Of a stretch of DNA of 64,000 bases, positions 4,120 through 55,348 are shown in pieces. Position numbers and translations under genes: made by a program. Every line of letters begins with the position of its first letter. The stretch's first letter is position 1. Below the pieces are notes generated by a model that searched no databases, was not told the origin of the DNA, and was given only the letters and a program-made list of their open reading frames with translations. The stretch comes from Candidatus Omnitrophota bacterium (lineage in GTDB: Bacteria; CAIJMQ01), in contig JAHJCU010000008.1 in assembly GCA_018812925.1 (NCBI GenBank), positions 100,970-164,969 on the forward strand, given 5' to 3'.

Positions 4120-4194
4120 TTCTAGATACTTGATGCTGGATACTAGTAGAAACATAATAAAAAAGTTTTAACTAGAATCAAGAATCTAGTATCC
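4120..4194. repeat. Heptamer-period repeat pair (class CTAGATA)
   Basis: Degenerate 7-base units (gattcta, gatactt, gatgctg, gatacta) form a left arm, and an inverted right arm (actagaa, tcaagaa, tctagta) follows after a short AT-rich loop. The same heptamer class recurs at 6870-6955. Confidence 0.65.
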
Positions 4195-4202
4195 TTTTTT
4201 TT
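4138..4202 (+). terminator. Rho-independent terminator after proA
   Basis: GGATACTAG at 4138-4146 pairs perfectly with CTAGTATCC at 4186-4194, and eight T follow at 4195-4202. The stem is formed by the ends of a heptamer-type inverted repeat, so the repeat seems to serve as the terminator. The long loop makes efficiency uncertain. Confidence 0.65.
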
Positions 4203-4216
4203 AGGTAACCAAATCC

Positions 4217-5317
4217 ATGAAAAAATTAATTCTGCCCACGCACCAGTATCACCATTACCACAATGGCAAACGATGTGGGGTTTCGCCACAATATAAAACA
4301 ACACATAAAAAAACACTGTGTATCTTAAACCTTGTGGCTACACTTTTACTGCTTCCTATCATCCTATTAGGATTTGGATTCTCTAAAAAGACATATCTTC
4401 TTATGGGAACTTTTGTGGAAATAACTCTTCCGCAGAAAAACAACAAAGTCATCAATGAAACCTTAGAAGCAATGCATGCACTGGAAGATGAGCTAAGCAT
4501 TTATAATAAGGAAAGCCAAATAAACCGCATAAATTCTCTGAAAAAAGACAACCTGCAGAAAACTTCTCCCGAAGTTTATGAAGTTATCCAAAAAGCCATT
4601 TATTTCAGTAAACTGACAAACGGCGCCTTTGACATAACGGTTTCCCCTCTTCTTAAACTCTGGGATTTTGAAGGAGGAGAATTAAAAGAAATACCATCAC
4701 AGGAAAAAATAGACGAAGCGCTAAGAAATATCGGCTGGCAAAACCTAATATTTACTAAAGACGGGAAAATTGGTTTTGCAAAAGATAATATGAGCATAAA
4801 CCTCGGCGGAATTGCAAAAGGGTATATTGTGGATAAGGCTATATCCTATTTAAATGCAAAAGGAATAAAATCAGCACTCATAAATGCGGGAGGAGATGTT
4901 TATTGTCTCGGCGAAAAAGAAAATGGGGAATCTTGGAATGTCGGCATACGTCATCCAAGAAAAAAGAAGGGAGTTATAGGAATATTAAAACTAAAAAATA
5001 AAGCAGTAGCCACTTCAGGCGATTACGAAAAATTTTTCACTTTGAAAGGAAAAAAGTTTTGTCATATAATTAACCCTCAAACTGGCTATCCTGTAGATAG
5101 CGCCATAATTCAAGTCACAGTAGTTGCGGAAACTTGCATCGATGCAGACGCGTTGGCAACGGCTTTAATGGTTATGGGAAAAGAAAAAGGAATAGAATTG
5201 ATAGAAAAACTCGCCAATACCGAGGTCGTTATAATAGAGGAAAAGGAAGGAAAACTCGATATAAGTTATACTAAAGGGTTGGAAGAAATTATTGAAATAA
5301 ACAAGGGTAATTGGTAA
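4217..5317 (+). CDS. apbE: FAD:protein FMN transferase (ApbE)
   Basis: ApbE proteins attach FMN covalently to threonine residues of flavoproteins, including subunits of Rnf and Nqr complexes, on the outer face of the inner membrane. The 366-residue protein has a hydrophobic N-terminal segment (residues 34-54) after an unusually long His-rich start, then LMGTFVEITL, a DAFDITVSP-like segment (GAFDITVSPLLKLWDF), INLGGIAKGY and INAGGDVYCLG, and a C-terminal IINPQTGYPVDS with ADALATALMVMG. These are the family hallmarks. It sits directly before a solo rnfC, consistent with flavin loading of an Rnf-type complex. The last few codons are made by the start of a heptamer repeat. No strong ribosome site is seen. 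Confidence 0.9.
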   Translation: MKKLILPTHQYHHYHNGKRCGVSPQYKTTHKKTLCILNLVATLLLLPIILLGFGFSKKTYLLMGTFVEITLPQKNNKVINETLEAMHALEDELSIYNKESQINRINSLKKDNLQKTSPEVYEVIQKAIYFSKLTNGAFDITVSPLLKLWDFEGGELKEIPSQEKIDEALRNIGWQNLIFTKDGKIGFAKDNMSINLGGIAKGYIVDKAISYLNAKGIKSALINAGGDVYCLGEKENGESWNVGIRHPRKKKGVIGILKLKNKAVATSGDYEKFFTLKGKKFCHIINPQTGYPVDSAIIQVTVVAETCIDADALATALMVMGKEKGIELIEKLANTEVVIIEEKEGKLDISYTKGLEEIIEINKGNW

Positions 5318-5512
5318 CTTGTAAATTGCCCCGTGGAATCTACAAGATTCCCGGGACCAAAGTCCTTGAGATTGCTCAGCAATCTCTAAGGGTAATCCGT
5401 AATTTTTCTATTGTTAGTTATTTGTTTATTACTATTTATGAATTACTGATTACTGTTTACGATTCTTGAATTACCATTTACCAATTACTATTTACGCTTT
5501 ACGATAAATACT
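5305..5512. repeat. Heptamer-period repeat region (class TTACCAA) before rnfC
   Basis: A left arm (gggtaat, tggtaac, ttgtaaa) overlaps the apbE stop. A long right arm is read as gaattac, catttac, caattac, tatttac, gctttac in strict steps of seven, and runs to the rnfC start codon without a ribosome site. The arms are inverted copies of each other. Between them lie three small hairpins (separate entry). Confidence 0.7.
5335..5386. other. Three consecutive perfect small hairpins
   Basis: GGAATC/GATTCC (5335-5340 with 5346-5351), GGAC/GTCC (5354-5357 with 5362-5365) and GAGATTGC/GCAATCTC (5368-5375 with 5379-5386) follow one another almost without gaps, inside the apbE-rnfC heptamer region. They may be an RNA structure or a separate palindromic element. 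The function is unknown. Confidence 0.5.
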
Positions 5513-6814
5513 ATGTTTAAATTACGTCCTTTTATAGGCGGTGTTCATCCGCCGGAAAACAAACATTTAAGTTGTGATAAAGAAATAATACCCATTCCCG
5601 CGCCTGAAATATTGTTTTTTCCTTTAAGCCAACATACAGGCGCACCGTGCCAGCCCGTAGTTCAAAAAGGCGACAAAGTAAAAAGAGGAACCTTAATAGG
5701 AACTTGTGAAAAACTTATATCAAGCCCTATTCATTCGTCTGTTTCGGGAACTGTAAAATCTATAGAGAATAGTTCGCATCCCGTAATCGGAAGATTTCAA
5801 TCCATTGTAATAGAAAACGATAAACAGGATTTAACCGAAGAATCTATTTCTCCTAAAAAAAACACCGAGAATCTTTCGGCAGATGAAATAATAAAAATCG
5901 TAAGAGATGCCGGCATAGTCGGACTCGGAGGCGCGGCATTTCCCACACACGTTAAGTTGTCCCCGCCAAAAGAAAAGGTTATCAAAACCTTCATAGCAAA
6001 CGGTGCTGAATGCGAACCATATTTAACCTGCGACCAACGCCTTATGCAGGAAATGGGGAAAGAAATAGTCGAAGGCATCAAGTTAGTAAGAAAGATTCTA
6101 AACTCCGAAAGATGCATTATTGCAATAGAAAACAATAAACCTGACGCAATAGAACAGATAAAAGAATTAACTCGAAACGAGAATATAGAAGTAATAGCCA
6201 TAAAAGTGAAATATCCTCAAGGCGGAGAAAAACAACTTATTAAGACGGTTTTAGGCAAAGAAGTCCCGTCGGGTGGACTACCTATGGATGTGGGTGTTGT
6301 AGTTCATAATGTCGGAACTCTGTTGGCTATTTACGAAGCTGTTAACTTTGGTAAACCATTATATGAAAGGGCAATAACCGTAACAGGCGCAGTAAAAAAT
6401 CCAGGCAATTATTTAGTTAGAATTGGAACACCCGTAAAAGATATTCTTGATTTCTGCCAAGTAGATTGGGATAACATAGGTAAAATAATTTTAGGCGGGC
6501 CAATGATGGGCATATCCCAACAAGACATCCAAACTCCCATAATAAAAGGAACAAGCGGAATACTTGTCCAAACTAAAGACGAAATAACGCAAGACGAAGA
6601 GTTTTCGTGCATAAGATGCGCAAAATGCATAGAAGTTTGCCCCGCATATCTTCTTCCCACACAGATTGCAAAAGTGGTAAAAGCCGAAAAATGGGAAAGA
6701 TTAAGCCAGTTACATATAAAAGATTGTATAGAATGCGGTTGCTGCACTTATGTATGTCCTTCCAAAATCCCCCTAGTTCAATATATTAAATTAGGAAAAA
6801 TCAAGACAAAATAA
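5513..6814 (+). CDS. rnfC: RnfC-like electron transport complex subunit
   Basis: RnfC is the peripheral NADH/ferredoxin-linked iron-sulfur subunit of the Rnf membrane complex. The 433-residue protein starts with the RnfC N-terminal F-x-GGVHPPxxK segment, carries the FMN/NADH-fold glycine loop GLGGAAFPTHVK near residue 141, the conserved NGAECEPYLTCD near residue 164, then two C-terminal 4Fe-4S motifs, CIRCAKCIEVCP (from residue 366) and CIECGCCTYVCP (from residue 405). It is full length. The other Rnf genes do not follow: the next gene is ribD. They must lie elsewhere, or this subunit works with another partner. The neighbouring apbE fits Rnf maturation. No ribosome site is visible. Confidence 0.88.
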   Translation: MFKLRPFIGGVHPPENKHLSCDKEIIPIPAPEILFFPLSQHTGAPCQPVVQKGDKVKRGTLIGTCEKLISSPIHSSVSGTVKSIENSSHPVIGRFQSIVIENDKQDLTEESISPKKNTENLSADEIIKIVRDAGIVGLGGAAFPTHVKLSPPKEKVIKTFIANGAECEPYLTCDQRLMQEMGKEIVEGIKLVRKILNSERCIIAIENNKPDAIEQIKELTRNENIEVIAIKVKYPQGGEKQLIKTVLGKEVPSGGLPMDVGVVVHNVGTLLAIYEAVNFGKPLYERAITVTGAVKNPGNYLVRIGTPVKDILDFCQVDWDNIGKIILGGPMMGISQQDIQTPIIKGTSGILVQTKDEITQDEEFSCIRCAKCIEVCPAYLLPTQIAKVVKAEKWERLSQLHIKDCIECGCCTYVCPSKIPLVQYIKLGKIKTK

Positions 6815-6869
6815 TCCCCTATCCACTTCTTTTGATGTTTAACGAGTTTTTAGATAAACTTATAAATAA

Positions 6870-6955
6870 TAAACCGATTCTAGATGATAGATACTCGTAG
6901 AAACAAATAATTTATTAACAAGCATCAAGAATCTAGAATCAAGTATCTAGTATTC
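6870..6955. repeat. Heptamer-period repeat pair (class CTAGATA), second locus
   Basis: GATTCTAGAT at 6876-6885 is a perfect inverted copy of ATCTAGAATC at 6931-6940, and TAGATACT at 6888-6895 of AGTATCTA at 6942-6949. Units step by seven bases. The region closely resembles the repeat after proA (4120-4194). It lies between rnfC and ribD. Confidence 0.65.
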
Positions 6956-6976
6956 TATTTTCAAATTCCAGATTAT

Positions 6977-8119
6977 ATGAAGAATAAAACGGACACCAAA
7001 TTCATTAAAGAGGCATTGGCTCTCGCAGTAAAAGCCGAAGGGCTCACGTCCCCCAATCCTTTGGTCGGCGCTGTTATCGTAAAGGGGAACAAAATTATCG
7101 GAAGAGGTTATCATAAAAGAGCAGGTTCTAAGCACGCTGAAATCCTTGCCCTTGAATCAGCAGGAAAGCCTGCCCACCAGCCCGCTACGAAGCTGGCAGG
7201 CAACCGAAAGGCAGGCGGGAAAACAAAAGGAGCTACTCTGTATATCAACCTTGAGCCATGCGCTCATTACGGTAAAACACCGCCCTGCGCTCCCGAAATA
7301 ATAAAAGCAGGTATAAAAAGAGTTGTAATAGCTATGCCGGACCCAAATCCTTTGGTCAATGGTAAGGGGATAAAGAAACTTAAATCCGAAGGGATAGATG
7401 TACAAGTCGGTATCCTTGAACAGGATGCTAGAAAAATAAACGAAACATATATCAAATATATGACTAAAAAAATGCCGTTTGTAGTTTTGAAATGGGCTAT
7501 GAGCTTAGACGGTAAAATAGCCACTCGTAAAGGCAATTCAAAATGGATTTCAGGGAAGGCTTCCAGAGAATTCACACAAAAATTAAGAGGTAAATTCGAT
7601 GCGGTTCTAATAGGGATAGAAACACTTCTTAAAGATAACCCTCAACTTAACACTCACGGTTTGGAAATAAAAGAACCAAAAAGAATAATTATTGACAGTA
7701 AAGGAAGAATCCCTTTGGATTGCAATCTGTTAAAAACTAAAGGTGGACAGATTATAATTACCACAACAGATAAAATAAGCAAAAAGAAAATAAGAGATTT
7801 GAAGGAAAAAGGAGCAGAGATTATAGTTATTTCTTCAAAAGAAGGCAGAGTCGACTTAAAGAAACTTATGATAGAATTAGCCAAACGAGAAATTACATCT
7901 ATATTGGTTGAAGGCGGCGGAACAATAAATGCTTCATTTATAGAAAATGCCTTGGCAGATAAATTTGTGGCATTTTTATCTCCTATGATAATCGGCGGTA
8001 AAAACGCAATTTCCCCTGTAGAAGGAAAAGGAATAGAAAAAATAGCCAATGCTGTAAGAATCCGCGACTTATCTATAAGGAAAATGGGAGAAGATGTAGT
8101 AATGGAAGGATATTTATAA
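6977..8119 (+). CDS. ribD: Bifunctional pyrimidine deaminase/reductase RibD
   Basis: RibD catalyses the second and third steps of riboflavin synthesis. The N-terminal deaminase domain has the zinc site HAE (residues 53-55) and PCAHYGKTPPC (94-104). The C-terminal reductase domain has KWAMSLDGKIATRKGNSKWISG near residues 170-190 and the VEGGGTINASF loop near 312. The 380 residues are slightly long because about 20 residues (64-83, rich in A, G, K and P) are inserted between the two deaminase motifs. The inserted DNA is a GC-rich palindromic repeat (7168-7219). First gene of ribD-ribE-ribBA-ribH; no ribosome site is visible. Confidence 0.95.
   Translation: MKNKTDTKFIKEALALAVKAEGLTSPNPLVGAVIVKGNKIIGRGYHKRAGSKHAEILALESAGKPAHQPATKLAGNRKAGGKTKGATLYINLEPCAHYGKTPPCAPEIIKAGIKRVVIAMPDPNPLVNGKGIKKLKSEGIDVQVGILEQDARKINETYIKYMTKKMPFVVLKWAMSLDGKIATRKGNSKWISGKASREFTQKLRGKFDAVLIGIETLLKDNPQLNTHGLEIKEPKRIIIDSKGRIPLDCNLLKTKGGQIIITTTDKISKKKIRDLKEKGAEIIVISSKEGRVDLKKLMIELAKREITSILVEGGGTINASFIENALADKFVAFLSPMIIGGKNAISPVEGKGIEKIANAVRIRDLSIRKMGEDVVMEGYL
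7168..7219 (+). repeat. GC-rich palindromic repeat inserted in frame in ribD
   Basis: GCCTGCC (7168-7174) is inverted as GGCAGGC (7195-7201), with a second copy GGCAGGCGGG at 7210-7219; CCAGC/GCTGG (7177-7181 with 7192-7196) forms an inner stem. It is far more GC-rich than the flanks and adds about 20 residues without breaking the frame. A similar sequence is inserted in the alkyltransferase gene (18511-18559). Confidence 0.65.
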
Positions 8120-8135
8120 ATCGTCAGAAAAATAA

Positions 8136-8199
8136 CGGTTATAGGTTATCGGTTATCGTAAAAAAACGAAAACCGAATACCGAAAACCGCTAACCGATT
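8136..8199. repeat. Heptamer-period repeat pair (class GGTTATC)
   Basis: Left arm ggttata, ggttatc, ggttatc; right arm ccgaata, ccgaaaa, ccgctaa, ccgatta; both step by seven bases and are inverted relative to each other around an A-rich loop. It fills the gap between ribD and ribE. The same class is at 16838-16904. Confidence 0.7.
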
Positions 8200-8208
8200 A
8201 GTTGAAAC

Positions 8209-8841
8209 ATGTTCACCGGAATAATTGAAGAAATAGGTAAAATATCTAAAATAGAAAAGAGCGGCAATGTTTGGACCTTTACCGTTAACGCGCCCAAGAT
8301 ATGCAAAGACGGTAAAAACGGTGACAGCATATCCGTTGACGGAGTTTGTCTTTCCGTAACGGATATACAAAAGAACACGTTCAAAGTGCAAGCTATACGC
8401 GAAACATTAGAAAAAACTACGCTTTTAAGTTTTAAAGAAAACAGGAGCGTAAACCTTGAAAGAGCGGTAAAACCTACAGACAGATTGGGAGGACATATTC
8501 TCACAGGACATATTGACGCGATAGGAGAAATAATTGAAAAAAGCAAAGGGGAAACTTTTAGTTTGAGAATAGAATCTCCCCTACCCCTAATGAAATATAT
8601 AGTCCCAAACGGCTCTATAGGAGTCGACGGAATAAGCTTAACCATAAAAGAAGTAGAGACTTCTTCGTTCAAAATTACTATAATTCCATATACAACATCT
8701 TTTGCTACGATAGGAATAAAAAAGATAAACGATAAAGTAAACCTCGAAGTAGATATACTGGCAAGATATGTAGAAAAGGCCATATCTGAGAAAAGAGAAA
8801 TAATTACATCTGAATTTCTAAAAGAAAAAGGATTTCTATGA
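8209..8841 (+). CDS. ribE: Riboflavin synthase alpha chain
   Basis: Riboflavin synthase turns two molecules of dimethylribityl-lumazine into riboflavin and a pyrimidinedione. The 210-residue protein begins with the invariant MFTGIIEE and consists of two lumazine-binding barrels; the second starts near residue 97 with GGHILTGHIDAIGEI. Length and motifs are normal. The start is clear from MFTGII although no ribosome site precedes it, only the heptamer repeat. The stop overlaps ribBA by four bases (ATGA, 8838-8841), indicating coupled translation. Confidence 0.96.
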   Translation: MFTGIIEEIGKISKIEKSGNVWTFTVNAPKICKDGKNGDSISVDGVCLSVTDIQKNTFKVQAIRETLEKTTLLSFKENRSVNLERAVKPTDRLGGHILTGHIDAIGEIIEKSKGETFSLRIESPLPLMKYIVPNGSIGVDGISLTIKEVETSSFKITIIPYTTSFATIGIKKINDKVNLEVDILARYVEKAISEKREIITSEFLKEKGFL

Positions 8842-10046: not shown

Positions 10047-10086
10047 TAAAATAACTAAAAACGAGTATAAAAAAAGGGAGGTTAAA

Positions 10087-10554
10087 ATGATTAAAACATA
10101 TAAAGCTGATTTAGTGGTTAAAGGTAAAAAAATTGCTCTGATATGTTCTCGTTTCAACGAATTTATTACGGGCAAACTCCTTGACGGCGCAATAGACACA
10201 CTTACACGACATGGCGCAAAAGAAAACGAGCTCGAAGTGTTTTGGGTCCCGGGTTCATTTGAAATCCCATATCTCGCCAGCAAACTTGCACAGAAGAAAA
10301 AATACGATGCGATTATCTGCTTAGGCACAGTAATAAAAGGTGACACATCACACTGGGAACACATAGCGAAAGAAGTGACTAAAGGCATAGCTCAAATTTC
10401 TCTTGCAACAGGTATACCTGTGATTTACGGAATACTCACTCCTGATACACTCGAGCAGGCAATTGAAAGAGCAGGAACAAAATCTGGCAACAAAGGCAGA
10501 GACGCCGCATTAGCAGCTATTGAGATGGTTAATTTGTTCGGACAGATAAAGTAA
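10087..10554 (+). CDS. ribH: 6,7-dimethyl-8-ribityllumazine synthase
   Basis: RibH condenses the butanone phosphate from RibB with the ribitylamino-pyrimidine from RibD to give lumazine. The 155-residue protein shows the family segments [32 protein letters not shown] near residue 56 and [25 protein letters not shown] near residue 78, including the catalytic His in the TSHWEH segment. A strong ribosome site (GGGAGG, near 10076-10081) supports the start. It is the last structural rib gene; nusB follows, as in many bacteria. Confidence 0.96.
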
Positions 10555-10556
10555 AG

Positions 10557-10610
10557 CAGTTTTAAGTCATAAGTAATAAGTTTTAAGTAACTGATAAAAA
10601 ACTGTTAATA
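10557..10610. repeat. Heptamer-period repeat (class TAAGTTT)
   Basis: Units ttttaag, tcataag, taataag, ttttaag, taactga step by seven. CAGTTTT at 10558-10564 is inverted as AAAACTG at 10598-10604, closing the array into a hairpin between ribH and nusB. Confidence 0.6.
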
Positions 10611-10637: not shown

Positions 10638-11084
10638 ATGAGCTCAAGACGAAAAGCAAGAGAATTGGCTTTGAAGGTTCTTTATCAGAATGATTCTATG
10701 CCCCATGATGGGACAGAACCACTTTCTACTTGGAAAGACACATTCAAGTATCTGACTGATATTATGGATATTGATAAAGAAGAGAAGAAGTTTGCAAAAG
10801 AACTGGTAGAAGGAACTTTAAAAAACATTGAGTTGATTGATCCCAAAATCTCCGAATTTTCTAAACATTGGAAAATCTCGAGAATTTCCGTAGTTGACCG
10901 AAACATTATGCGTATTGCCTGTTACGAGATGCTATTTTCAGAAAAAGTCCCCCATGCAGTATCTATCGACGAAGCAATAGAGCTAAGCAAAAAATATTCT
11001 GCAACAGAAAGTAAATCATTCATAAACGGCGTTTTGGATGGGATATGTAAGGACTTACAAAAAAAATCAAAAATAAAAAATTAA
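10638..11084 (+). CDS. nusB: Transcription antitermination factor NusB
   Basis: NusB is a small all-helical RNA-binding protein acting with NusE in rRNA antitermination. The 148-residue protein has the typical start SSRRKARELALKVLYQ, the central DRNIMRIACYEMLF and the C-terminal IDEAIELSKKYSATESKSFINGVLDGI, all diagnostic. It follows the rib genes, a common arrangement. A weak purine-rich stretch (gatggga) precedes the ATG. The stop lies inside an AT-rich inverted repeat that runs to mutS. Confidence 0.95.
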   Translation: MSSRRKARELALKVLYQNDSMPHDGTEPLSTWKDTFKYLTDIMDIDKEEKKFAKELVEGTLKNIELIDPKISEFSKHWKISRISVVDRNIMRIACYEMLFSEKVPHAVSIDEAIELSKKYSATESKSFINGVLDGICKDLQKKSKIKN

Positions 11085-11124
11085 AATGTAAAATGACAAA
11101 TTAAAATTCAAAATTTTACATTTT
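11083..11124. repeat. AT-rich inverted repeat with 7-base period
   Basis: AAAATGTAAAAT (11083-11094) is a perfect 12-base inverted copy of ATTTTACATTTT (11113-11124). The units aaaatgt, aaaatga, caaatta, aaattca step by seven. It occupies the nusB-mutS gap and could act as a weak bidirectional terminator. Confidence 0.6.
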
Positions 11125-11136
11125 GATATGTAATTT

Positions 11137-16837: not shown

Positions 16838-16904
16838 TCGGTGTTCGGTTATCGTAAATAATTTTTAACGCAAACCGAAAACCGTTTTATCTTTACGCTA
16901 ACCG
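16838..16904. repeat. Heptamer-period repeat pair (class GGTTATC), second locus
   Basis: The left arm carries ggtgttc, ggttatc; the right arm aaccgaa, aaccgtt and cgctaaccg, inverted around taaataatttttaacg. It closely resembles the repeat between ribD and ribE and lies between namZ and the zinc-binding membrane protein gene. Confidence 0.6.
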
Positions 16905-16908
16905 TCTT

Positions 16909-19411: not shown

Positions 19412-21739
19412 ATGGATATAGAATTGAAAACTCCGAAGGAAATTCCGGTCCTGCCTTTAAGGGATACGGTTGTTTTTCCGGGTATGACCGTCCCTATAAC
19501 CATAGGCAAACCCGCCAGTATAAAACTCGTAGACGATGTGTCTATCGGGGATAAATTCTGCTGCTTAGTCCTGCAGAAGAAAAAATTGGATGAAGACCCC
19601 CAGCCTGAAAATTTATATAGAGTCGGGACTTTGGCGCGGATCGTAAAAATGTTTAAACTGCCAACAAATACCGTCTACCTATTGGCGCAGGGAATCGAAA
19701 GAATAGAGATAAAAAATTTCACTCAAAAAGAACCCTATATAAAAGCTCACGTAAATAATATACAAGAAGAAAGCAGCGGAAAGACTCCGGAAATAGAAGC
19801 CCGGATGAGAAACCTATTGCACCAATTTAAAAAAGCGGTGTCTTTATCGCCCAAAATTCCGGAAGAAGAAAGTTATATCACCGCAATTAACATTAAAGAA
19901 CCCGGGAGATTGGCTGATTTTATTATCGCAAATCTTTCTCTTAGCCCCAAAGAACAACAAGACATATTGGAAACTTTGGACCCAATAGAAAGATTAAATA
20001 AAGTAGCCAAATTCTTAAACAATGAATTGGAAGTTCTCATGTTGCAGTCCAAAATCCAAGAAGAAACAAAATCGAAACTCGGCAAAGCGCAGCGTGAATA
20101 TTTCTTGAGGCAACAGCTTGAATCTATAAGAAAGGAGCTGGGAGAAGGGGACGAAAATGCGATAGAAATAAAGGAACTAAGAAAAAAGATAGAAGAAGTG
20201 GGAATGAGCCAAGAAGCGATGAAAGAAGCAAAGAGGGAACTCAACAGATTAGACAAGTTGCCTCCGCAAGCCGCAGAATATCACGTTATACGCACATATT
20301 TAGATTGGCTCGTTTCTGTTCCTTGGAACAAAAGTACAAAAGATAATCTCGATATTAATCAGGCGGCAAAAGTATTAGACGAAGACCATCACGATTTGGA
20401 AAAAGTAAAAGACAGAATTTTAGAATTTTTAGCCGTAATGAACCTAAAGAAAGATGCAAAGGGACCAGTTCTATGTTTTGCGGGTCCGCCAGGAGTGGGG
20501 AAAACATCCCTAGGTCAATCTATTGCCAGAGCGTTAGGCAGAAAATTTGTCCGGTTGTCTCTTGGGGGCATAAGAGATGAAGCAGAGATAAGAGGACACA
20601 GAAGAACATATATAGGAGCCCTACCCGGCAGAATAATACAAGGATTAAGAAGAGCAGGAACAAACAACCCCGTGTTTATGTTAGATGAAGTAGACAAGAT
20701 TGGTACCGATTTTAGAGGCGACCCGTCATCTGCCCTATTGGAAGTTTTAGACCCCGAACAAAATAATTCTTTCAGCGACCATTATTTAGATGTTTCCTTC
20801 GACCTTTCAAAAGTAATGTTTATTACCACGGCAAATATCTTAGACACTATTCCGCACGCTTTACGCGATAGGATGGAAGTTTTGGAATTACCCGGCTACC
20901 CGCAAGAAGAAAAACTTATAATTTCCAAAAAATTCTTGTTACCTCGTCAGATAAAAGAGAACGGTTTAAAGCCGGAAAATGTAAAAATAACTGATCCTGC
21001 CATTAGGAAAATAATCCGAGAATATACTCGTGAAGCGGGTGTAAGAAATGTAGAAAGAGAAATTGCCAATATTCTTCGCAAAGTTGCAAAAAAGTTCGTT
21101 AAAGGTAAAAAAGATTCTTTTGAAATCAATGAAAAAAATATTGCTTTATATCTAGGTCCTATTAAGTTTTTCTCCGAAACAGCTGAACGCACATCTGAAC
21201 CGGGAGTAGCAACTGGACTGGCATGGACGCCGCAAGGCGGAGAAATTCTCTTCATAGAAGCAAATAAAATGAGCGGAAAAAAGGACCTTACTTTAACAGG
21301 CCAGTTAGGTCAAACGATGCAAGAATCTGCTAAAGCCGCTTTATCTTATGTGCGTTCCAAAGCAAAGAAACTAAAAATTGATGAAGGATTTTTTGAAAAA
21401 TATGACATACATATACATGTTCCGCAGGGAGCAGTACCGAAAGATGGTCCTTCGGCAGGAGTTGCCATAGCTACCGCGCTGGTATCTCTATTAACCAATA
21501 GACTGGTAAAATACAATGTGGCTATGACAGGGGAAATCACATTAAAGGGGAAAATTTTGCCTGTGGGTGGTATTAAAGAAAAAGTGCTTGCCGCTTCCCG
21601 CGCAGGAATAAAAGAGATAATTCTACCTGCAAGAAACAAAAAGGATTTGGAAGAGATTCCTGCTCATGTCAAAAAGAGTTTGAAATTTACATTTGTCAAA
21701 ACACTGGACGAAGTTTTTGCGCACGCCCTTAAAAAATAG
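19412..21739 (+). CDS. lon: ATP-dependent protease Lon
   Basis: Lon degrades misfolded and regulatory proteins in the cytoplasm. The 775-residue protein is full length: an N-terminal substrate domain (PVLPLRDTVVFPGMTVPITIG), a coiled linker, the AAA+ module with Walker A GPPGVGKTSLGQSIA near residue 355 and Walker B region VFMLDEVDKIG, and a C-terminal protease domain with the Ser-Lys dyad, Ser681 in PKDGPSAG and Lys724 in GGIKEKVLAA. It follows hsp20 and has no clear ribosome site of its own. Confidence 0.97.
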   Translation: MDIELKTPKEIPVLPLRDTVVFPGMTVPITIGKPASIKLVDDVSIGDKFCCLVLQKKKLDEDPQPENLYRVGTLARIVKMFKLPTNTVYLLAQGIERIEIKNFTQKEPYIKAHVNNIQEESSGKTPEIEARMRNLLHQFKKAVSLSPKIPEEESYITAINIKEPGRLADFIIANLSLSPKEQQDILETLDPIERLNKVAKFLNNELEVLMLQSKIQEETKSKLGKAQREYFLRQQLESIRKELGEGDENAIEIKELRKKIEEVGMSQEAMKEAKRELNRLDKLPPQAAEYHVIRTYLDWLVSVPWNKSTKDNLDINQAAKVLDEDHHDLEKVKDRILEFLAVMNLKKDAKGPVLCFAGPPGVGKTSLGQSIARALGRKFVRLSLGGIRDEAEIRGHRRTYIGALPGRIIQGLRRAGTNNPVFMLDEVDKIGTDFRGDPSSALLEVLDPEQNNSFSDHYLDVSFDLSKVMFITTANILDTIPHALRDRMEVLELPGYPQEEKLIISKKFLLPRQIKENGLKPENVKITDPAIRKIIREYTREAGVRNVEREIANILRKVAKKFVKGKKDSFEINEKNIALYLGPIKFFSETAERTSEPGVATGLAWTPQGGEILFIEANKMSGKKDLTLTGQLGQTMQESAKAALSYVRSKAKKLKIDEGFFEKYDIHIHVPQGAVPKDGPSAGVAIATALVSLLTNRLVKYNVAMTGEITLKGKILPVGGIKEKVLAASRAGIKEIILPARNKKDLEEIPAHVKKSLKFTFVKTLDEVFAHALKK

Positions 21740-21741
21740 CG

Positions 21742-21808
21742 GTCAATTATCAGTGACCAGAGTTTAGCAAAAACCAACTGACCACTCATCACTATCCACT
21801 AGGAACTA
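21742..21808. repeat. Heptamer-period repeat (class GACCACT)
   Basis: Units ccaactg, accactc, atcacta, tccacta step by seven from about 21777 to 21804; a shorter related arm (ggtcaat, tatcagt, gaccaga) lies at 21742-21762. It separates lon from the minus-strand genes. Confidence 0.5.
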
Positions 21809-31719: not shown

Positions 31720-31992
31720 ATGAAGAAACGCACCGGTAAATATTACGTTTATATTGTTAAATGTCAGAAAGGGACATATTACATCGGTTATACAAATGAT
31801 ATTAAAAATCGGCTTAAACTACATAACAGGGGCCTTGGCGCTAGATACTTAAGAGGTAAATCGCCTATAGAATTAGTCTATGTTAAAAAATATAAGTATT
31901 ATAAGAGTGCGATTAATAAAGAAATATCACTTAAAAAACTAACAAGGAAACAGAAAGAGGAATTGATTAAAACTTATGAAAAAACAAAATAG
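31720..31992 (+). CDS. GIY-YIG nuclease-domain protein
   Basis: The 90-residue protein is a single GIY-YIG domain: YYVYIVKCQKGTYYIGYTNDIKNRLKLHNRGLGARYL, with the second tyrosine block, the conserved Arg and the late Glu (NKEISLKKL) present. Similar stand-alone proteins (YhbQ type) are common and their role is unclear. It overlaps the miaB start by 17 bases. A decayed frame of the same type is found inside the small element at 40188-40314. Confidence 0.9.
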   Translation: MKKRTGKYYVYIVKCQKGTYYIGYTNDIKNRLKLHNRGLGARYLRGKSPIELVYVKKYKYYKSAINKEISLKKLTRKQKEELIKTYEKTK

Positions 31993-33448
31993 TAAGTTAT
32001 CCCCCCTTGATTCTGCTCATTGCATTCGCAAAATCAAAACAGGGGGGACGGCACCGAAAGTTTTCATTCAAACTTTCGGGTGCCAGATGAATAAATACGA
32101 CTCAGAGATTATGAAGTCGCTTCTCTTACAAGAAGGATATGAATTTACCGACAATTGGCAAAAGGCAGATGTAATACTGGTTAATACCTGTAGTGTAAGA
32201 CAACATGCGGAAGAAAGGGTATATGCGCATTTATGGAAATGGAGCAGATATAAGCAAGAATCAAAACCCAATTTGATAATCGGTATATGCGGATGTATGG
32301 CGCAGAAAGAAGGAATAAATATTCTAAACAAAATACCTCATTTAAATCTTGTATGCGGAACTTACAGTATTCCTAAAATTCATGAATTTGTAAGGGATTT
32401 ACTTAAAACCGGCGGCAGGCGCATTGAAACTTCAGAAGATTACACTGATTTCCCTGCGCCTATTTATGAGATAAGAGACAGCAAAATTTCTGCGTGGGTG
32501 GCAATTATGAGGGGATGTAATAACTATTGCGCCTATTGTGTCGTGCCGTATGTCAGAGGTAAAGAAATAAGCCGTCCTGTAGAAGAAATAGAAACGGAAA
32601 TCAAGGAACTTGCCCGCAAAGGCATAAAAGAAGTAACGCTTTTGGGGCAGAATGTTAACTCATACGCATCTCAGAAGACAGAAAACAGAAGACAGAGGAC
32701 AGAAAAAAATAAAAATGATTTTGCACACTTGCTGAAAAGAATAAATGACATAAAGGGGATTGAACGGATAAGATTCACAACTTCGCATCCGAAAGACATG
32801 TCTATCGTTACTATTGAAGCTATAAGAGATTTGCCAAAAGTTTGCGAGCATATTCATCTGGCATTACAGTCTGGTTCCGACAGGATTTTGAAACTGATGA
32901 ATAGAAAATATACAAGGAGCCAGTATAAAGAGCTTGTTGACAGAATCAGAGCGACTATTCCAGATGTAAGCATTACTACCGACATAATGGTTGGATTTCC
33001 TACCGAAACCAAAGATGACTTTATGGATACTTATAATCTTGTCAAAGAAATAGGATTTGATGCGTCTTATATATTCAAATATTCGACAAGACCCGGAACA
33101 AAAGCCGCCGATATGGAAGATGATATACCTGAAGAAATAAAAAAAGAACGACTCAACAAGCTTCTTTCTCTTCAAAAAAGAATAGTACAGAAGAAAAACG
33201 AAAAATTAATCGGTAAAGAAGTTGAAATCCTCGTTGAGGGAATTAATAAAAGAGGAAGTAAATTGTTAAGTGAAACCACGTGCATTTCCGAACCCGACGG
33301 AGTTCGGAAATGTTACGTGGGGAAGACTCGTAATTTCAAGTATGTCTCTTTCCAAAGCGATAAAAACTTAATCGGAAAACTGGTAAAAGTGAAGGTTGTA
33401 AAAGTAAGAGGTGGGTTGTTTGAGGGAATTTTAGTTGACAAAAGTTGA
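31976..33448 (+). CDS. miaB: tRNA-2-methylthio-N6-dimethylallyladenosine synthase MiaB
   Basis: MiaB is a radical-SAM methylthiotransferase acting on i6A37 of tRNAs. The 490-residue protein has the N-terminal cluster domain (FGCQMN, NTCSVR, GCMAQ), the radical-SAM motif CNNYCAYCVVP near residue 182, RIRFTTSHPKDMS and a C-terminal TRAM domain. Two odd stretches are encoded by repeats: residues 9-24 by a C6/G6-ended palindrome (32000-32048), and residues 233-245 (QKTENRRQRTEKN) by a 7-base-period array (32671-32706) in a loop after NVNSY. Core motifs are intact, so the enzyme is probably active. It overlaps the GIY-YIG gene. Confidence 0.95.
   Translation: MKKQNSKLSPLDSAHCIRKIKTGGTAPKVFIQTFGCQMNKYDSEIMKSLLLQEGYEFTDNWQKADVILVNTCSVRQHAEERVYAHLWKWSRYKQESKPNLIIGICGCMAQKEGINILNKIPHLNLVCGTYSIPKIHEFVRDLLKTGGRRIETSEDYTDFPAPIYEIRDSKISAWVAIMRGCNNYCAYCVVPYVRGKEISRPVEEIETEIKELARKGIKEVTLLGQNVNSYASQKTENRRQRTEKNKNDFAHLLKRINDIKGIERIRFTTSHPKDMSIVTIEAIRDLPKVCEHIHLALQSGSDRILKLMNRKYTRSQYKELVDRIRATIPDVSITTDIMVGFPTETKDDFMDTYNLVKEIGFDASYIFKYSTRPGTKAADMEDDIPEEIKKERLNKLLSLQKRIVQKKNEKLIGKEVEILVEGINKRGSKLLSETTCISEPDGVRKCYVGKTRNFKYVSFQSDKNLIGKLVKVKVVKVRGGLFEGILVDKS
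32000..32048 (+). repeat. Palindromic repeat in frame at the miaB N-terminus
   Basis: TCCCCCCT (32000-32007) is inverted as AGGGGGGA (32041-32048), with TTGATT/AATCAA inside the arms. It encodes about 16 residues that are not part of usual MiaB starts. Confidence 0.55.
32671..32706 (+). repeat. Heptamer repeat in frame inside miaB (class CAGAAGA)
   Basis: cagaaga, cagaaaa, cagaaga, cagagga, cagaaaa step by seven and are read as QKTENRRQRTEKN. The same heptamer class forms intergenic arrays at 34700-34797 and 53023-53094. Confidence 0.7.
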
Positions 33449-34619: not shown

Positions 34620-34694
34620 TGGCTGCCCAGCCTGGACTCGAACCAGGAAAACAAGATCCAGAATCTTGCGTGTTACCAATTACACCACCGGGCA
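34620..34694 (-). tRNA. tRNA-Gln (anticodon CTG)
   Basis: On the minus strand the acceptor stem TGCCCGG pairs with CTGGGCA, the anticodon stem CAAGA/TCTTG encloses TTCTGGA with anticodon CTG, and the T arm has GGTTCGAGTCC. The 3' CCA is encoded (34620-34622). A heptamer repeat begins a few bases upstream of its 5' end. Confidence 0.93.
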
Positions 34695-34699
34695 ATTAT

Positions 34700-34797
34700 T
34701 AAACAGAGGACAGAATACAGACAACAGAATACAGAAAAATTTAAAATCTTCTATTTTGCATATCTGACATCTGTCTTCTGACTTCTGTCGTCTGGTT
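34700..34797. repeat. Heptamer-period inverted pair (class CAGAAGA)
   Basis: Left arm cagagga, cagaata, cagacaa, cagaata, cagaaaa; right arm ctgacat, ctgtctt, ctgactt, ctgtcgt, ctggttt; the two are inverted copies around an AT-rich loop. It separates tRNA-Gln from the small gene next to the zeta-like kinase. Confidence 0.75.
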
Positions 34798-34805
34798 TAT
34801 AACTG

Positions 34806-36674: not shown

Positions 36675-36805
36675 TTGGAAATATATAGAAATACAATGGA
36701 GATACATGGAAACACTTAGTAGACAGGCAATATATATCAACATATTTCCATGTATTTCGACTTATATCAAAGTGTTATTTCTGTGTATTTCCGTTCATTT
36801 CTAAA
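36675..36805. repeat. Inverted degenerate repeat with 10-base period
   Basis: The left arm repeats tggaaatata/tagaaataca/atggagatac/atggaaacac in steps of about ten bases. The right arm (catatttccatgtatttcg, then ttctgtgtatttccgttc) is inverted. It lies between asd and tRNA-Glu and resembles the 7-base arrays in architecture but not in period. Confidence 0.6.
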
Positions 36806-49486: not shown

Positions 49487-49491
49487 TTTTT

Positions 49492-51245: not shown

Positions 51246-51248
51246 TTT

Positions 51249-51623
51249 TTAATCCTCTGCTATGATAGTAGTAAGTTGGACGTCATAGGCATTGCCTCTT
51301 TCCTGCCAATTTGTCGTGACCGTTAATTCTCTGTATGTGCCACCTATATCTACTGAAGCAGTACTTCTGTTAAACTGGATGCCCCCAAGAGATATAGTAG
51401 CTTCATTTTGCGCGTCCGGGATAGAGGTATAACCAGATTCTTTCCACAATTCTATTTTTTCTTTAGTCAACTCCAAAGCCATTCTCTGATGATTAGCATT
51501 AACAATATGAACCCTGCCATAGAAAAAGAACACAAATCCACCTATCATTACAATTGCAAAAATAACGATAGCAACCATCACTTCTACAAGCGTAAAACCT
51601 CGTCTTCTATTTTTTCTATTCAT
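51249..51623 (-). CDS. PilV-like minor pilin
   Basis: The prepilin (124 residues from the ATG at 51623) has the motif RRRGFTLVEVMVAIVIFAIVMIGGFVFF, then a small head (MALELTKEKIELWKESGYTSI ... RELTVTTNWQERGNAYDVQLTT) of PilV/GspI type. It is the first of four minor-pilin genes after pilC. GGAG lies nine bases before the ATG; an in-frame GTG at 51638 is possible. Confidence 0.87.
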   Translation of the reverse strand: MNRKNRRRGFTLVEVMVAIVIFAIVMIGGFVFFFYGRVHIVNANHQRMALELTKEKIELWKESGYTSIPDAQNEATISLGGIQFNRSTASVDIGGTYRELTVTTNWQERGNAYDVQLTTIIAED

Positions 51624-51734
51624 TTGGCCCATCTCCACTGGTTATTATACCACCAGGTGCAAGTCCTCGCGTCGGTATCCATGAAATTCAATAGGAAAAA
51701 GTGAAATTCTGACATTATTTCTACACTATATTTT

Positions 51735-51795
51735 ACTCGTTAGAGAGATATCTCCGCCTGCCTTGCGGAAGCGGGCAGGTCTTTACGGGTCTAAC
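51735..51795. repeat. Intergenic palindrome: CCCGT-type ends around a CCTGCC/GGCAGG core
   Basis: GTTAGA (51739-51744) is inverted as TCTAAC (51790-51795), with outer ends like those of the small mobile elements. Inside, CCTGCC (51757-51762) is inverted as GGCAGG (51774-51779), the GC-rich palindrome found in ribD and the alkyltransferase gene. It lies between pilC and pilV. Confidence 0.55.
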
Positions 51796-51799
51796 AAGA

Positions 51800-53014
51800 T
51801 TATTTCATACCTGAAGCAAGTGTGAATATAGGGAAATAGATTGCAATTACTACAATACCCACTACTCCACCCAATAAAACAATGAGCAATGGCTCTATTA
51901 TAGAAGTAAGAGCCGCCACCGCGACTTTCACCTCTTCGCTGTAGAATCCTGAAAGGCGTATAAGCATTTGCGGAACGGTTCCTGAATTCTCTCCCACCTG
52001 AATCATCTTCACCATCATTTTGGGGAAAAGAAAACTTTTTGCCAATTCATCCGATATAGTAGAACCTTTTTCTATTCCGGAAATGGTTCGTTGGGTAAAA
52101 TCTTCCAGTAAAATGCTTCCAGCCGCTTTAGAAGCGATAGTTAAAGAATATATTACGGCAACACCGCCGTCTAATAGCGTAGCTAGCGAACGGCAAAACC
52201 TGCTTAAAATAACTTTGTGAAAAAGTTTTCCAAAAAGAGGCGCTTTTATTTTCACATTAGCATATATATGTTTACCTTTATCGGTCTTACCAAAAGCCAA
52301 TACGGAAAAAATAGCTCCGCCTACAAACACAATTTCGTAAAGTATATTTCTTATCATAAATTCGGAAAATCCCAGAACCATACTAGTAATGGGAGGAAGG
52401 GTGGCTCCAAACGAAGCAAAAATATCTTTGAACTTGGGGATTAAGATAAAAACTACGATGCCAACACAGATAACAAAAAATGAGGCAATAAACGCAGGAT
52501 AAGCAATGGCTCCTTGAACCTGTTTTATTAAAGCGACTTCGTCTTCTGTATAAGAAGCAAGTTCAGCCATAACTTTTGGTAAATTTCCTGATTCTTCTCC
52601 TGTAGCCGCCATATTTATAACTAAAGAAGAAAAAGTGTCGGGATATTTTTTCAAAGCTTCAGAAAAGCTGTTTCCACCCTCTATCTGACTTGCTATATTC
52701 GTTACAATTGCGCTTAAATTTATACTTTCGGATTGGTCGGAAAGGTCTTTTATAGCAGTTACTATCGGAACACCCGCGTCTAGCATCGTTGCAAGTTGTC
52801 TGTAAAAAACCGATAATTGGCCTAATTTAACTTTTCCATATTTAACATTCTGCTGGTTTGCTTTTGTTTGTTCTTTTCCTTTCGCCCTCACAGATATTAC
52901 TGTAAGCCCTTTTCCTCTTAATAAACGCACTACTTCGTAGGAAGACGCTGATTCAACCGTCCCGTCTACTTTTTTACCTGATACATCTTTTGTGGAATAA
53001 TTAAATATTGGCAT
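51800..53014 (-). CDS. pilC: Type IV pilus platform protein PilC
   Basis: PilC/GspF is the inner-membrane platform on which the motor acts. The 404-residue protein starts with FNYSTKDVSGKKVDGTVESAS, has two GspF domains (GQLSVFYRQLATMLDAGVPIVTAIKDL and HKVILSRFCRSLATLLDGGVAVIYSL) and three transmembrane helices (IASFFVICVGIVVFILIP, the central NILYEIVFVGGAIFSVLAF and the terminal PLLIVLLGGVVGIVVIAIYFPIF). It follows pilB with a heptamer repeat in the gap. Confidence 0.95.
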   Translation of the reverse strand: MPIFNYSTKDVSGKKVDGTVESASSYEVVRLLRGKGLTVISVRAKGKEQTKANQQNVKYGKVKLGQLSVFYRQLATMLDAGVPIVTAIKDLSDQSESINLSAIVTNIASQIEGGNSFSEALKKYPDTFSSLVINMAATGEESGNLPKVMAELASYTEDEVALIKQVQGAIAYPAFIASFFVICVGIVVFILIPKFKDIFASFGATLPPITSMVLGFSEFMIRNILYEIVFVGGAIFSVLAFGKTDKGKHIYANVKIKAPLFGKLFHKVILSRFCRSLATLLDGGVAVIYSLTIASKAAGSILLEDFTQRTISGIEKGSTISDELAKSFLFPKMMVKMIQVGENSGTVPQMLIRLSGFYSEEVKVAVAALTSIIEPLLIVLLGGVVGIVVIAIYFPIFTLASGMK

Positions 53015-53022
53015 ATTAGTAC

Positions 53023-53094
53023 CCAGAGCTCAGATGACAGAAGTCAGAAATCGGAAAAAATAAATTTCCTATCAACTGTCTTCTGTTTTCTGTT
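53023..53094. repeat. Heptamer-period inverted pair (class CAGAAGA), third locus
   Basis: Left arm gagctca, gatgaca, gaagtca, gaaatcg; right arm caactgt, cttctgt, tttctgt; inverted copies of each other with steps of seven. It fills the pilB-pilC gap inside the operon. Confidence 0.7.
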
Positions 53095-53096
53095 GT

Positions 53097-54908
53097 TTAT
53101 TCATAAGTTAGCGTAGAAGTTAAAACTTCTTCCAATGAAGTTATACCTGCAAGGGCTTTTTTAATGCCAGCTTCTCTTAATGTAACCATTTTTTGTTGTT
53201 CTTTTGCTATGATTTTTATTTCTTCTTCGGATTTACCGTCATTAATAGCTTTTCTCACTTCGGGGGTAATCTGGAACAATTCATATAGCCCTACTCTGCC
53301 TCGATACCCTTTATTGTTACAATCCGGGCATCCTTCTCCTTTATAAAATGTTACATCCTTGCCCTTTACATTAACATCTTCTGCTATTCTTTTAAGAACT
53401 TCTTCCGATATTTTCTCGGGTACTTTACATTTTGGGCAAATCCTTCTGACTAACCTCTGGGCAATACTCAATCTTAAAGCCGACGATATTAAAAAAGGCT
53501 CTATGCCCATATACGCCAATCTCGTAATTACAGAAACTGCATCATTTGTATGAAGAGTGGAAAAAACCATGTGCCCTGTAAGAGCTGACTGTATCGAAAT
53601 CTCTGCGGTTTCCTTGTCTCTAATTTCCCCTACCATGATAACATCGGGGTCCTGTCTTAAAATAGTTCTTAAACAACTGGCGAAAGTAAGTCCGATGTGT
53701 GCCCTTACTTGAATCTGATTTATACCCCGCAATTCATATTCTACCGGGTCTTCTACCGTAATAATATTTTTCTCGGGAGAATTTATATAGTTCAAAGCCC
53801 CGTAAAGTGTAGTTGATTTTCCGCTTCCCGTAGGACCGGTAAGAAGAACCATTCCATACGGAGAAGATACCGCATCTTTGAATTTTTCCAATTCACTTTT
53901 GTCAAAACCCAATTCTTCAAGACCCATCAGCATAGTGGTTTTGTCCAATAATCGCATTACTACTTTTTCGCCATAAATAGTAGGAATAATTGAAACACGA
54001 ATATCGACTTCTTTCGAGCCTATTTTTGCTTTAGTCCTGCCGTCTTGAGGAAGTCTTCTTTCGGCAATATCCAGATTAGAAATAATTTTTATACGAGAAA
54101 CAATTGCAGGATATGTTTTCTTTGGAGGAGGAGGCAAGTTTCTCAAAACACCGTCCACACGGTTACGGACAAAAACTTCCGTTTCCGCCGCTTCCAAATG
54201 TATATCACTGGCTCTTTCCTCAATTGCTTTTAAAAGAATAGAATTAACATATCTGACAACGGGCGGGTCTTTAACTTGAACTTTTAATTGAGCCAAATCT
54301 ATATTTTCTTGTTCTTTGGCCTCTTCGGCCTCGGCAGAAAAACTTATATCTTTTAAATCGGGGATGCTATTTGCCATATCGCTCTCCCCATAATATTTTT
54401 CAATGGCATCGTTTATTTCTTTTCTTGTCGATAACAGCGGAATTATTTCGTATCCCGTGTTACTCCTTATATTATCTATAGCAACTATATTTGCAGGGTC
54501 GGACATTACCAAATTGATATAAGAGCCCTCATGTGAAATGGCAATAACACAAAAATGTCGTGCCAGTTTTTCAGGCACAAGCCTTACTATTTCCTTTTCA
54601 ATCTCTTTGCTATGTTCGGATAAAAAGATAAACGGGGACCTTCTTACCAACGAAAAAACTTCTTCCACATCCCTAGGAGAAGCCAACTTCATTTCCAATA
54701 TTACTTCCTGCAGTTTTTTGTTTTGTTTTTTGCTTTCTTCTTGGGCTTTCTTAATATTTTTTACGTTGATAATATCTCGGTCTATGAACAACGCCTGGAC
54801 ATAACTGTCTTCTATTTCCGATTGGATTTCAAGCGCTTCCTTAAGTTGTTCGGAAGTGATAAGCTTGCGGTTTACAAGAATTTCACCTAACTTCTGTTTT
54901 TCTTTCAT
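53097..54908 (-). CDS. pilB: Type IV pilus extension ATPase PilB
   Basis: PilB powers pilus extension from the cytoplasm. The protein has an N-terminal MshEN domain (LGEILVNRKLITSEQLKEAL), a second N-terminal domain, then the GspE core with SDIHLE-type EERASDIHLEAAE, Walker A GPTGSGKSTTLYGAL, Walker B region QDPDVIMVGEIRDKETAE, the His box HMVFSTLHTNDA and a tetracysteine zinc site (CPKC and CPDC). I start it at the ATG at 54908 (603 residues) because the region before it holds a good promoter; a TTG at 54944 lies inside that promoter. It is the first gene of the pil operon. Confidence 0.94.
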   Translation of the reverse strand: MKEKQKLGEILVNRKLITSEQLKEALEIQSEIEDSYVQALFIDRDIINVKNIKKAQEESKKQNKKLQEVILEMKLASPRDVEEVFSLVRRSPFIFLSEHSKEIEKEIVRLVPEKLARHFCVIAISHEGSYINLVMSDPANIVAIDNIRSNTGYEIIPLLSTRKEINDAIEKYYGESDMANSIPDLKDISFSAEAEEAKEQENIDLAQLKVQVKDPPVVRYVNSILLKAIEERASDIHLEAAETEVFVRNRVDGVLRNLPPPPKKTYPAIVSRIKIISNLDIAERRLPQDGRTKAKIGSKEVDIRVSIIPTIYGEKVVMRLLDKTTMLMGLEELGFDKSELEKFKDAVSSPYGMVLLTGPTGSGKSTTLYGALNYINSPEKNIITVEDPVEYELRGINQIQVRAHIGLTFASCLRTILRQDPDVIMVGEIRDKETAEISIQSALTGHMVFSTLHTNDAVSVITRLAYMGIEPFLISSALRLSIAQRLVRRICPKCKVPEKISEEVLKRIAEDVNVKGKDVTFYKGEGCPDCNNKGYRGRVGLYELFQITPEVRKAINDGKSEEEIKIIAKEQQKMVTLREAGIKKALAGITSLEEVLTSTLTYE

Positions 54909-54930
54909 CTTGTTAAATTCCCTGATTTGT

Positions 54931-54958
54931 ATTATACCATTCAATTTCCCGATTTCAA
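54931..54958 (-). promoter_or_regulatory. Promoter of the pil operon
   Basis: On the minus strand: -35 TTGAAA (54953-54958), 16-base spacer, -10 TATAAT (54931-54936). The predicted leader before the pilB ATG at 54908 is about 16 bases. Confidence 0.6.
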
Positions 54959-55228
54959 GAAATTTAATTTCACAGTAATAAAATCAAAAGCATAAATAAT
55001 AAGTTTAGAATTCCAAAATAAATATTTATTACCTACGCTTGAGCTTTGGATAGGCAATTGCACACAACAAGACCTTGATAAATATGGGATAGAAAAACCT
55101 TAGCCTTTCTCTACTTGCTTTAATTTGCAGTAAATTGTTTTTTCAGGTAAAATTTCCGCATCTATGTGTACATTATATATAATAATGTAAGGTTCTCCAT
55201 TGTTATACATACCTTTCTATATTTATTA

Positions 55229-55306
55229 CGGGGCGTAGCGCAGCCTGGCTAGCGCACTTGGTTTGGGACCAAGGGGTCGGTGGTTCGAATCCACTCGCCC
55301 CGACCA
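55229..55306 (+). tRNA. tRNA-Pro (anticodon TGG)
   Basis: The acceptor stem CGGGGCG/CGCCCCG is perfect, the anticodon stem CTTGG/CCAAG encloses TTTGGGA (anticodon TGG), the T arm has GGTTCGAATCC and CCA is encoded at 55304-55306. The 284 bases before it (54945-55228) contain no gene I can support; an AT palindrome near 55170-55190 may hold its -10. Confidence 0.95.
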
Positions 55307-55316
55307 GAACTAAAAA

Positions 55317-55348
55317 AAGGGTAACCAGTTACTATCAACTGATTACTT
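55317..55348. repeat. Heptamer-period repeat (class GGTTACC-like)
   Basis: ggtaacc, agttact, atcaact, gattact, tatagtc step by seven bases between tRNA-Pro and the giant gene. It is related in heptamer sequence to the array before rnfC. No inverted second arm is seen. Confidence 0.5.

Follow-up and report, generated by a model that had tools for sequence, protein, structure and literature searches.

Dispersed hairpins built on a 7-base period in an Omnitrophota genome

Heptad arrays in the window and in the genome

The DNA analysed here, referred to as the window, is a stretch of 64,000 nucleotides (C4:100970-164969) of a metagenome-assembled genome of a Candidatus Omnitrophota bacterium (G000; 1.47 Mb in 14 contigs, 92% complete). 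Its genes include ribD, mutS, a MiaB-type gene and T2SS-F-like and T2SS-E-like genes, and four tRNAs were the only features found by Rfam at gathering thresholds. Relatives of its MutS in named genomes are spread over many phyla and reach 52% identity at most. Dispersed among them are short arrays of degenerate heptamers, usually set on two inverted arms around a loop and here called heptad hairpins (Table 1). An initial annotation of the window had named twelve such sites and described their 7-base period as strict, and both the window and the genome bear this out. With a threshold of 16/21 lag-7 matches, 12 stretches were found in the window, with 0.3 expected from Markov shuffles; 7 were found at lag 14 (0.2 expected) and 0-1 at each of the lags 3-6 and 8-13. 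Nine of the named sites were recovered independently by lag 7 (4120, the right part of 5305, 6870, 8136, 10557, 11083, 32671, 34700 and 53023). The other three (16838, 21742 and 55317) have short arms, failed when taken alone and were accepted through classes seen elsewhere in the genome (ACCG, AGTG and GTAA, respectively). The array at 5305 is real and proved to be composite, as it contains a 64-base nested hairpin module. The inverted arrangement of the arms likewise stood as the usual one, an exception being 32671, which consists of one arm only inside the MiaB gene. The related site described at 36675 with a 10-base period is also genuine, with period 10 reported by Tandem Repeats Finder (TRF) at 36676-36712 and 36776-36802.

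The period was then followed through the genome, which was scanned almost entirely (969 bases of C4 were left out). Autocorrelation at lag 7 in intergenic DNA, proposed as a check in the initial annotation, revealed a strong excess with harmonics, the match rates being 0.318 at lag 7, 0.306 at lag 14 and 0.303 at lag 21, with neighbouring lags at about 0.284. Coding DNA of the same genome displayed the codon period only and no lag-7 excess. The intergenic excess was repeated in the congener G001, with a rate of 0.310. At a lag-7 score of at least 12, 273 arrays were detected in G000 and 18 in Markov shuffles, and each of the other periods (4-6 and 8-13) gave between 8 and 44 arrays. A first scan for hairpin axes, which penalised mismatches only loosely, gave no useful signal. 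The class-agnostic scan, which required four units with paired cores of 4 bases every 7 bases, yielded at least 95 hairpins at a cut-off of 14/16 or more, and none of the shuffled sites reached 14. A chance origin is ruled out by the shuffled controls together with the intergenic excess, and the lag-7 arrays are confirmed as genuine and genome-wide.

In G000, arrays are present in roughly one in four gene spacers with a length of 25 bases or more, and tandem, convergent and divergent spacers are occupied to similar degrees (25%, 23% and 20%, respectively). In tandem spacers the arrays start at a median of 8 bases past the stop codon; gene models came from a simple open reading frame caller, so positions relative to genes are approximate. 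A 25-base hairpin, CCTGCCCGCTTCGCAGCAGGCGGG, was seen in apparent coding sequences as well as in arrays (G000 C11 near 527108, L075; C14 near 105981, L094). Several G001 spacers have, between the arrays and the start codons, a recurring leader, CGAACRAAGYGAGG, that contains a Shine-Dalgarno-like GAGG (L191:160-182, L192 and L201).

Table 1. Heptad arrays and related features of the window (position 1 is the first base of the window).
Feature	Position	Strand	Parts and context	Basis
Heptad hairpin, class GATWCTN/ATCNAG (CTAGATA in the initial annotation)	4119-4194		arms ~4119-4146 and 4172-4194	lag-7 segment 4117-4146; sequence
Composite GTAA-class element	5305-5506		left arm 5305-5329, module ~5329-5392, then GTAANNN units, loop and TTAC arm	lag-7 segments 5433-5506
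Nested 64-base hairpin module, CCCCGTGG...CTAAGGG	~5329-5392		copy C4:106298, one of 10	
Heptad hairpin, class of the 4119 site (GATWCTN/ATCNAG)	6876-6956		arms ~6876-6901 and 6919-6953	lag-7 segment 6913-6956
Heptad hairpin, CGGT/ACCG class	8136-8200		arms 8136-8158 and 8162-8197; between ribD (RibD domains) and the next gene	lag-7 segments 8130-8164 and 8159-8201; TRF period 7
Single arm, AAGYNNT class (TTTTAAG)	10557-10591	+	operon spacer	lag-7 segment
AAAATNN-class array with short inverted right end	11056-11125		directly upstream of mutS (MutS domains)	lag-7 segment, 17/21
Short inverted site, CGGT/ACCG class, weak alone	16842-16905			sequence; under the window lag-7 threshold
Short inverted site, AGTGNNN/NNNCACT, weak alone	21736-21806		class also seen, e.g., at C10:72082	sequence
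Single CAGANNN arm	32667-32715	+	in frame inside the MiaB-type gene 31976-33448	lag-7 segment, 18/21
Heptad hairpin, CAGA class	34700-34798		arms 34702-34736 and 34763-34794; neighbour of tRNA gene 34623-34694; among 18 paired CAGA elements	lag-7 segments
Decamer hairpin, GGAAATACAT-like units, inverted arms (related kind)	36676-36803			TRF period 10
Heptad hairpin, CAGA class	53022-53104		between T2SS-F-like and T2SS-E-like genes (domains)	lag-7 segments
Short inverted GTAA-class site, weak alone	55318-55352		after tRNA gene 55229-55303	sequence

Unit design, classes and copies

The unit was found to consist of a fixed core of four (sometimes five) letters followed by two or three free letters, and one class is common to many sites, which replaces the earlier description of a separate heptamer for each site. 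The core classes of G000 include GTAANNN, CAGANNN, GATWCTN, AGACYNN, AAGYNNT, CGGTNNT and more. The recurrence of classes noted in the window extends to the whole genome, with 113 arms for GTAA and 67 for CAGA. Elements are roughly 60-150 bases long, and paired GTAA arms mostly have five cores. Where opposite arms lie within 80 bases of each other, the core comes first and its reverse complement second in all 35 GTAA pairs and all 18 CAGA pairs.

The free letters behave differently from the cores, a result obtained for the two largest classes, GTAA and CAGA. Neighbouring units are identical in 4.5% of cases for GTAA and 6.4% for CAGA, compared with 6.7% and 7.0% for random unit pairs from the genome. 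Identical units occur within one element at only a third to a half of the expected number (19 vs about 50 for GTAA and 9 vs about 26 for CAGA). Facing triplets share fewer letters than expected, with values of 0.284 vs 0.394 (z -4.5) for GTAA and 0.302 vs 0.406 (z -2.9) for CAGA, and this pairing deficit persists with arm and position held fixed. For GTAA it is concentrated in the last free position, which is complementary in 11 of 108 cells and mostly shows C-C, C-T, G-G and A-G. Repetition of the avoidance test on CAGA in G001, with 9 hairpins, gave a weak effect (z -1.7 and -2.3). An anti-pairing rule for every class was rejected, since the class-agnostic scan gave a small effect only. RNA folds of the elements are much better than those of dinucleotide shuffles (mean z of -3.9 for GTAA and -4.1 for CAGA), and permuting the triplets inside an element results, on average, in more stable folds. 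In these two classes the cores pair, and the order of the triplets looks as though it avoided both pairing and repetition.

Some elements are evident copies. The GTAA elements at C4:87701 and C14:109107 are 94.8% identical over 116 shared bases, and runs of three units are shared among GTAA arms 27 times, with 3 expected by chance. Four GTAA loci on C11 (573700-573950, 155600-155800, 385080-385290 and 554500-554740) are homologous composites, with the array and a nested hairpin at the same place in common and, in three of the four, also the loop. The triplets of their 5' arms are almost unchanged and those of their 3' arms differ, which hints that the two arms of these composites may change at different rates. 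The module of the 5305 site is present in 10 copies in G000 (L031-L108), all of them in GTAA arrays and at one phase of the core. Across the ten composites the module has a mean pairwise identity of 96.5%, the core letters 90% and the triplet letters 48%. Modules related to it (CCCCTAG...CCAGAGGG and others) are found together with further heptamer classes, and one of them lies inside the MiaB linker of the congener G002.

Comparison with other genomes, namely the congeners G001 and G002, the family member G003 and the class members G004-G006, revealed that the class repertoire shifts at genus level, as the counts differ from genome to genome. The GTAA pattern has 135 hits in G000, 20 in G001 and 0 in G002, and the CAGA pattern has 59, 97 and 89 in the same genomes, 1 in G003 and none in G004 and G005. 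The reversed control pattern AGACNNN has 126 hits in G004 and 273 in G005. In distant genomes the GTAA pattern is patchy, with at least one hit in 36 of 290, and degenerate inverted arrays like those of G000 are also present in the unrelated G179. Long tandems of near-identical heptamers (GTAACCT, GTAACAG and GTAAAGG) occur in G070 (L225 and neighbouring loci) and G009 (L222 and L234), in contrast to the degenerate inverted kind.

Turnover between species

Synteny was compared between G000 and 0.77 Mb of G001, the two being 91% identical in nucleotides over 515 kb of alignments. Conservation by descent at orthologous sites, named in the initial annotation as an observation that would speak against its description, was not found for most arrays: the alignment with G001 covers 34 of the 88 non-coding G000 arrays whose gene order is conserved. 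The aligned fraction is 44% for array bases, 74% for other non-coding DNA and 94% for coding DNA. In the 39 spacers that hold arrays in both species the class is nearly always different, such as CAGA in one and AATCTT in the other, or a decamer hairpin opposite GTAA. The spacer orthologous to 36676-36803, for instance, holds a heptad hairpin in G001 in place of the decamer hairpin (L255). The CAGA hairpin at 53022-53104 is aligned by descent in G001 and has a decamer hairpin inserted in its loop there (L199), and decamer hairpins and one AGTG hairpin were seen nested inside loops of CAGA hairpins in G001. One gain could be polarised: a 120-base insert with AGACCNN arms (AGACCAA/AGACCGA) is found in G001 alone, and G000, G002 and G003 share the empty junction. 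The units of this insert are already unlike. The content of elements in spacers changes between species that are still 91% identical in nucleotides.

Several side observations concern the company of these elements in G001. The decamer class, with GAAATACATN-like units on inverted arms, resembles the heptad elements in its behaviour; it was seen far more often in G001 (L191, L201, L205 and L275) than in G000, and a GTTAA-type decamer class is also present in G001. Dispersed elements of the type GTCATTGCGAG...GCAATCTC are frequent there and nest with heptad arrays (L193:1974-2225, L203, L252 and L261). New inserts in G001 carry a leader resembling CGAACRAAGYGAGG.

The coding site of the window gives a parallel picture. 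The MiaB-type gene, with UPF0004, radical SAM and TRAM domains, bears its array in a linker after LLGQNVNSY. This linker has CAGA units in G000, AATATCA-type units in G003, AATATCA-type units interrupted by a CCCC...GGG module in G002, and no array in G004 and G005. All three arrays are in frame.

Arrays that stay in place change little. In gap-free alignments of 11 retained arrays, a small sample biased to well-conserved sites, 2.0% of core letters and 6.7% of free letters changed (p 0.02). Hypermutation of the free letters in place had been considered when a first comparison suggested faster change; the gap-free alignments gave no strong effect, and misregister by one unit was the likely cause. 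Rapid change in place is not supported, because the retained gap-free arrays change little between species. One conserved array differs in length between the species by exactly one 7-base unit (L197:18182).

Possible origin and relation to known repeats

Our preferred explanation, to which we give about an even chance (roughly 0.5), is that the arrays form a large population of short quasi-palindromic elements that are non-autonomous, lie dispersed in spacers and undergo fast gain, loss and swapping. The elements would spread by copying between spacers, as suggested by those with clear relatives over more than 100 bases, and would persist as tolerated, mostly selfish spacer DNA and not as gene-specific regulators, because the three spacer types (tandem, convergent and divergent) carry them about equally often. 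Slippage during replication and deletions provoked by hairpins may purge the units of exact repeats and exact palindromes, and the outcome of such purging would be arrays with pairing cores and with free letters that avoid repeats and pairing. If so, the elements hold a clean natural record of the repeats that a bacterial chromosome cannot keep. The elements show that a 7-base period, familiar from simple repeats of cyanobacteria and from a single intron hairpin, can be the building rule for a whole population of dispersed hairpins with an exchangeable sequence class.

Several observations weigh against this explanation. CAGA arms share no more three-unit runs than expected by chance (3 vs 1), and simple copying therefore fails to explain the CAGA class. 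A Y1 transposase of the RAYT type (PF01797) is absent from G000 (0 in a genome that is 92% complete), with 4 in G001 and 2 in G002, and a reverse transcriptase (PF00078) was not found in the three genus members G000, G001 and G002; both were rejected as movers, the former being missing in G000 and the latter in the genus. No constant target-site duplication was found at 18 near-empty insertion junctions. About 39% of the syntenic arrays are conserved by descent, some nearly unchanged, which could mean selection. In addition, the count of 39 spacers with arrays in both species was drawn from gaps between alignments, so that conserved arrays of the same class were excluded by construction.

The contrast between modules and triplets has led to a further, doubtful proposal, namely that the elements are diversified when they are made, with cores and 7-base spacing kept and the intervening letters filled nearly at random, so that cores pair and triplets do not. 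It is put forward because the modules are 96.5% alike and the triplets 48%, while arrays retained in place barely change. Unlike units made at birth would, if true, be a new way of producing DNA. The simpler reading is that the module inserts into pre-existing, varied GTAA arrays at one core phase. A diversity-generating retroelement, considered for free letters that vary between copies, was rejected on the same lack of PF00078 reverse transcriptase in the three genus members.

Among the alternatives to dispersed spacer elements, birth as plain short tandemly repeated repetitive (STRR) or long simple sequence repeat (LSSR) arrays by polymerase slippage in 7-base steps, followed by decay through point mutation and with the inverted arm produced by template switching, is unlikely and already weakened. 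Heptamers are the favoured period of long simple repeats in bacteria, for which polymerase slippage has been proposed (PMC4679880, citing Mrazek 2007), and the nine exact runs of at least three copies in G000 and the array that differs by exactly one unit are in keeping with it. Neighbouring GTAA units, however, are no more alike than random ones, the free positions are saturated while the cores are intact, and the polarised G001 insert already has unlike units. Template switching meets the opposite of its expectation, as complementarity between facing arms falls below chance at the free positions.

Selection of RNA hairpins in mRNA spacers, which would set the stability or the translation of the mRNA and would withstand RNase III through their interrupted helices, is improbable. 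The folds that surpass dinucleotide shuffles, the covariation of cores as whole classes, the start of tandem-spacer arrays shortly past the stop codon and the slower change of core letters than of free letters between species would all suit it. Against it, arrays occur in divergent and convergent spacers almost as frequently as in tandem ones, permutation of triplets yields more stable folds, and orthologous operons swap, lose or lack the hairpin. Selection on the triplets for RNA structure was rejected by a comparison of G-U with A-C on the sense strand, which gave no consistent signal (26 G-U vs 35 A-C for GTAA, where G-U is not favoured, and 22 vs 10 for CAGA).

Two-sided arrays of protein-binding sites, in which proteins would read a core of 4 bases at intervals of 7 bp on both strands, would account for the invariant cores, the free spacers and the strict polarity; they are very unlikely, because a genome of 1.5 Mb contains many core classes unrelated to one another and repertoires change between congeners, as seen for GTAA, so that many different proteins would be needed. 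An artefact of assembly or composition in metagenome-assembled genomes is hardly credible, for although several G001 contigs end in arrays and repeats do break assemblies, the shuffled controls, the in-frame MiaB arrays in three genomes and the occurrence of such arrays in independent genomes, among them the unrelated G179, all speak against it.

Among described systems, the trnL intron of Nostoc has the nearest architecture: its degenerate heptanucleotide repeats form a hairpin by base pairing, with variation in copy number and by insertions (PMC3488679). Degenerate heptamers on two pairing arms, with other sequence elements inserted into the array, are common to the P6b stem of that intron and to the arrays described here. 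P6b is, however, a single locus in the group I intron of a tRNA-Leu; G000 has hundreds of intergenic sites, many core classes and class swapping, and the sites of the window are located in or between protein genes or next to tRNAs, not in such a stem.

STRR and heptameric LSSR of cyanobacteria and other bacteria also have a 7-base period, an intergenic location and many copies. They are runs of identical or near-identical units, whereas the G000 units differ and the arrays are short and inverted, with only 9 exact runs of at least three identical heptamers in the genome against 273 degenerate arrays, which agrees with the earlier statement that the arrays are not plain STRR. A short STRR-like query matched three cyanobacterial plasmids only. 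The TAACTGA repeats of Beggiatoaceae are intergenic heptamers too, patchy in distant phyla and often near start codons (PMC4679880). Unlike the G000 arrays, they are formed by one heptamer in direct orientation, with only one indirect set in that genome (PMC4679880), and tandem TAACTGA pairs numbered 0 on either strand of G000.

Repetitive extragenic palindromic (REP) sequences and REPINs, mobilised by RAYT transposases (PMC3116915, PMC3733652), resemble the heptad elements as short, extragenic, palindromic dispersed repeats with imperfect hairpins. The elements of G000 differ in the lack of a Y1 transposase gene and of a single tagged sequence, and in their internal 7-base periodicity. Miniature inverted-repeat transposable elements have constant terminal inverted repeats and a target duplication of fixed length; here the 18 junctions lack a constant duplication and the terminal letters vary by class. 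Within the open-licence literature, beyond which an earlier description may exist, neither PMC3488679 nor PMC4679880 describes dispersed heptad hairpins of multiple classes with class swapping. The heptad hairpins are small dispersed DNA repeats of a kind that moves fast and is, for the most part, undescribed.

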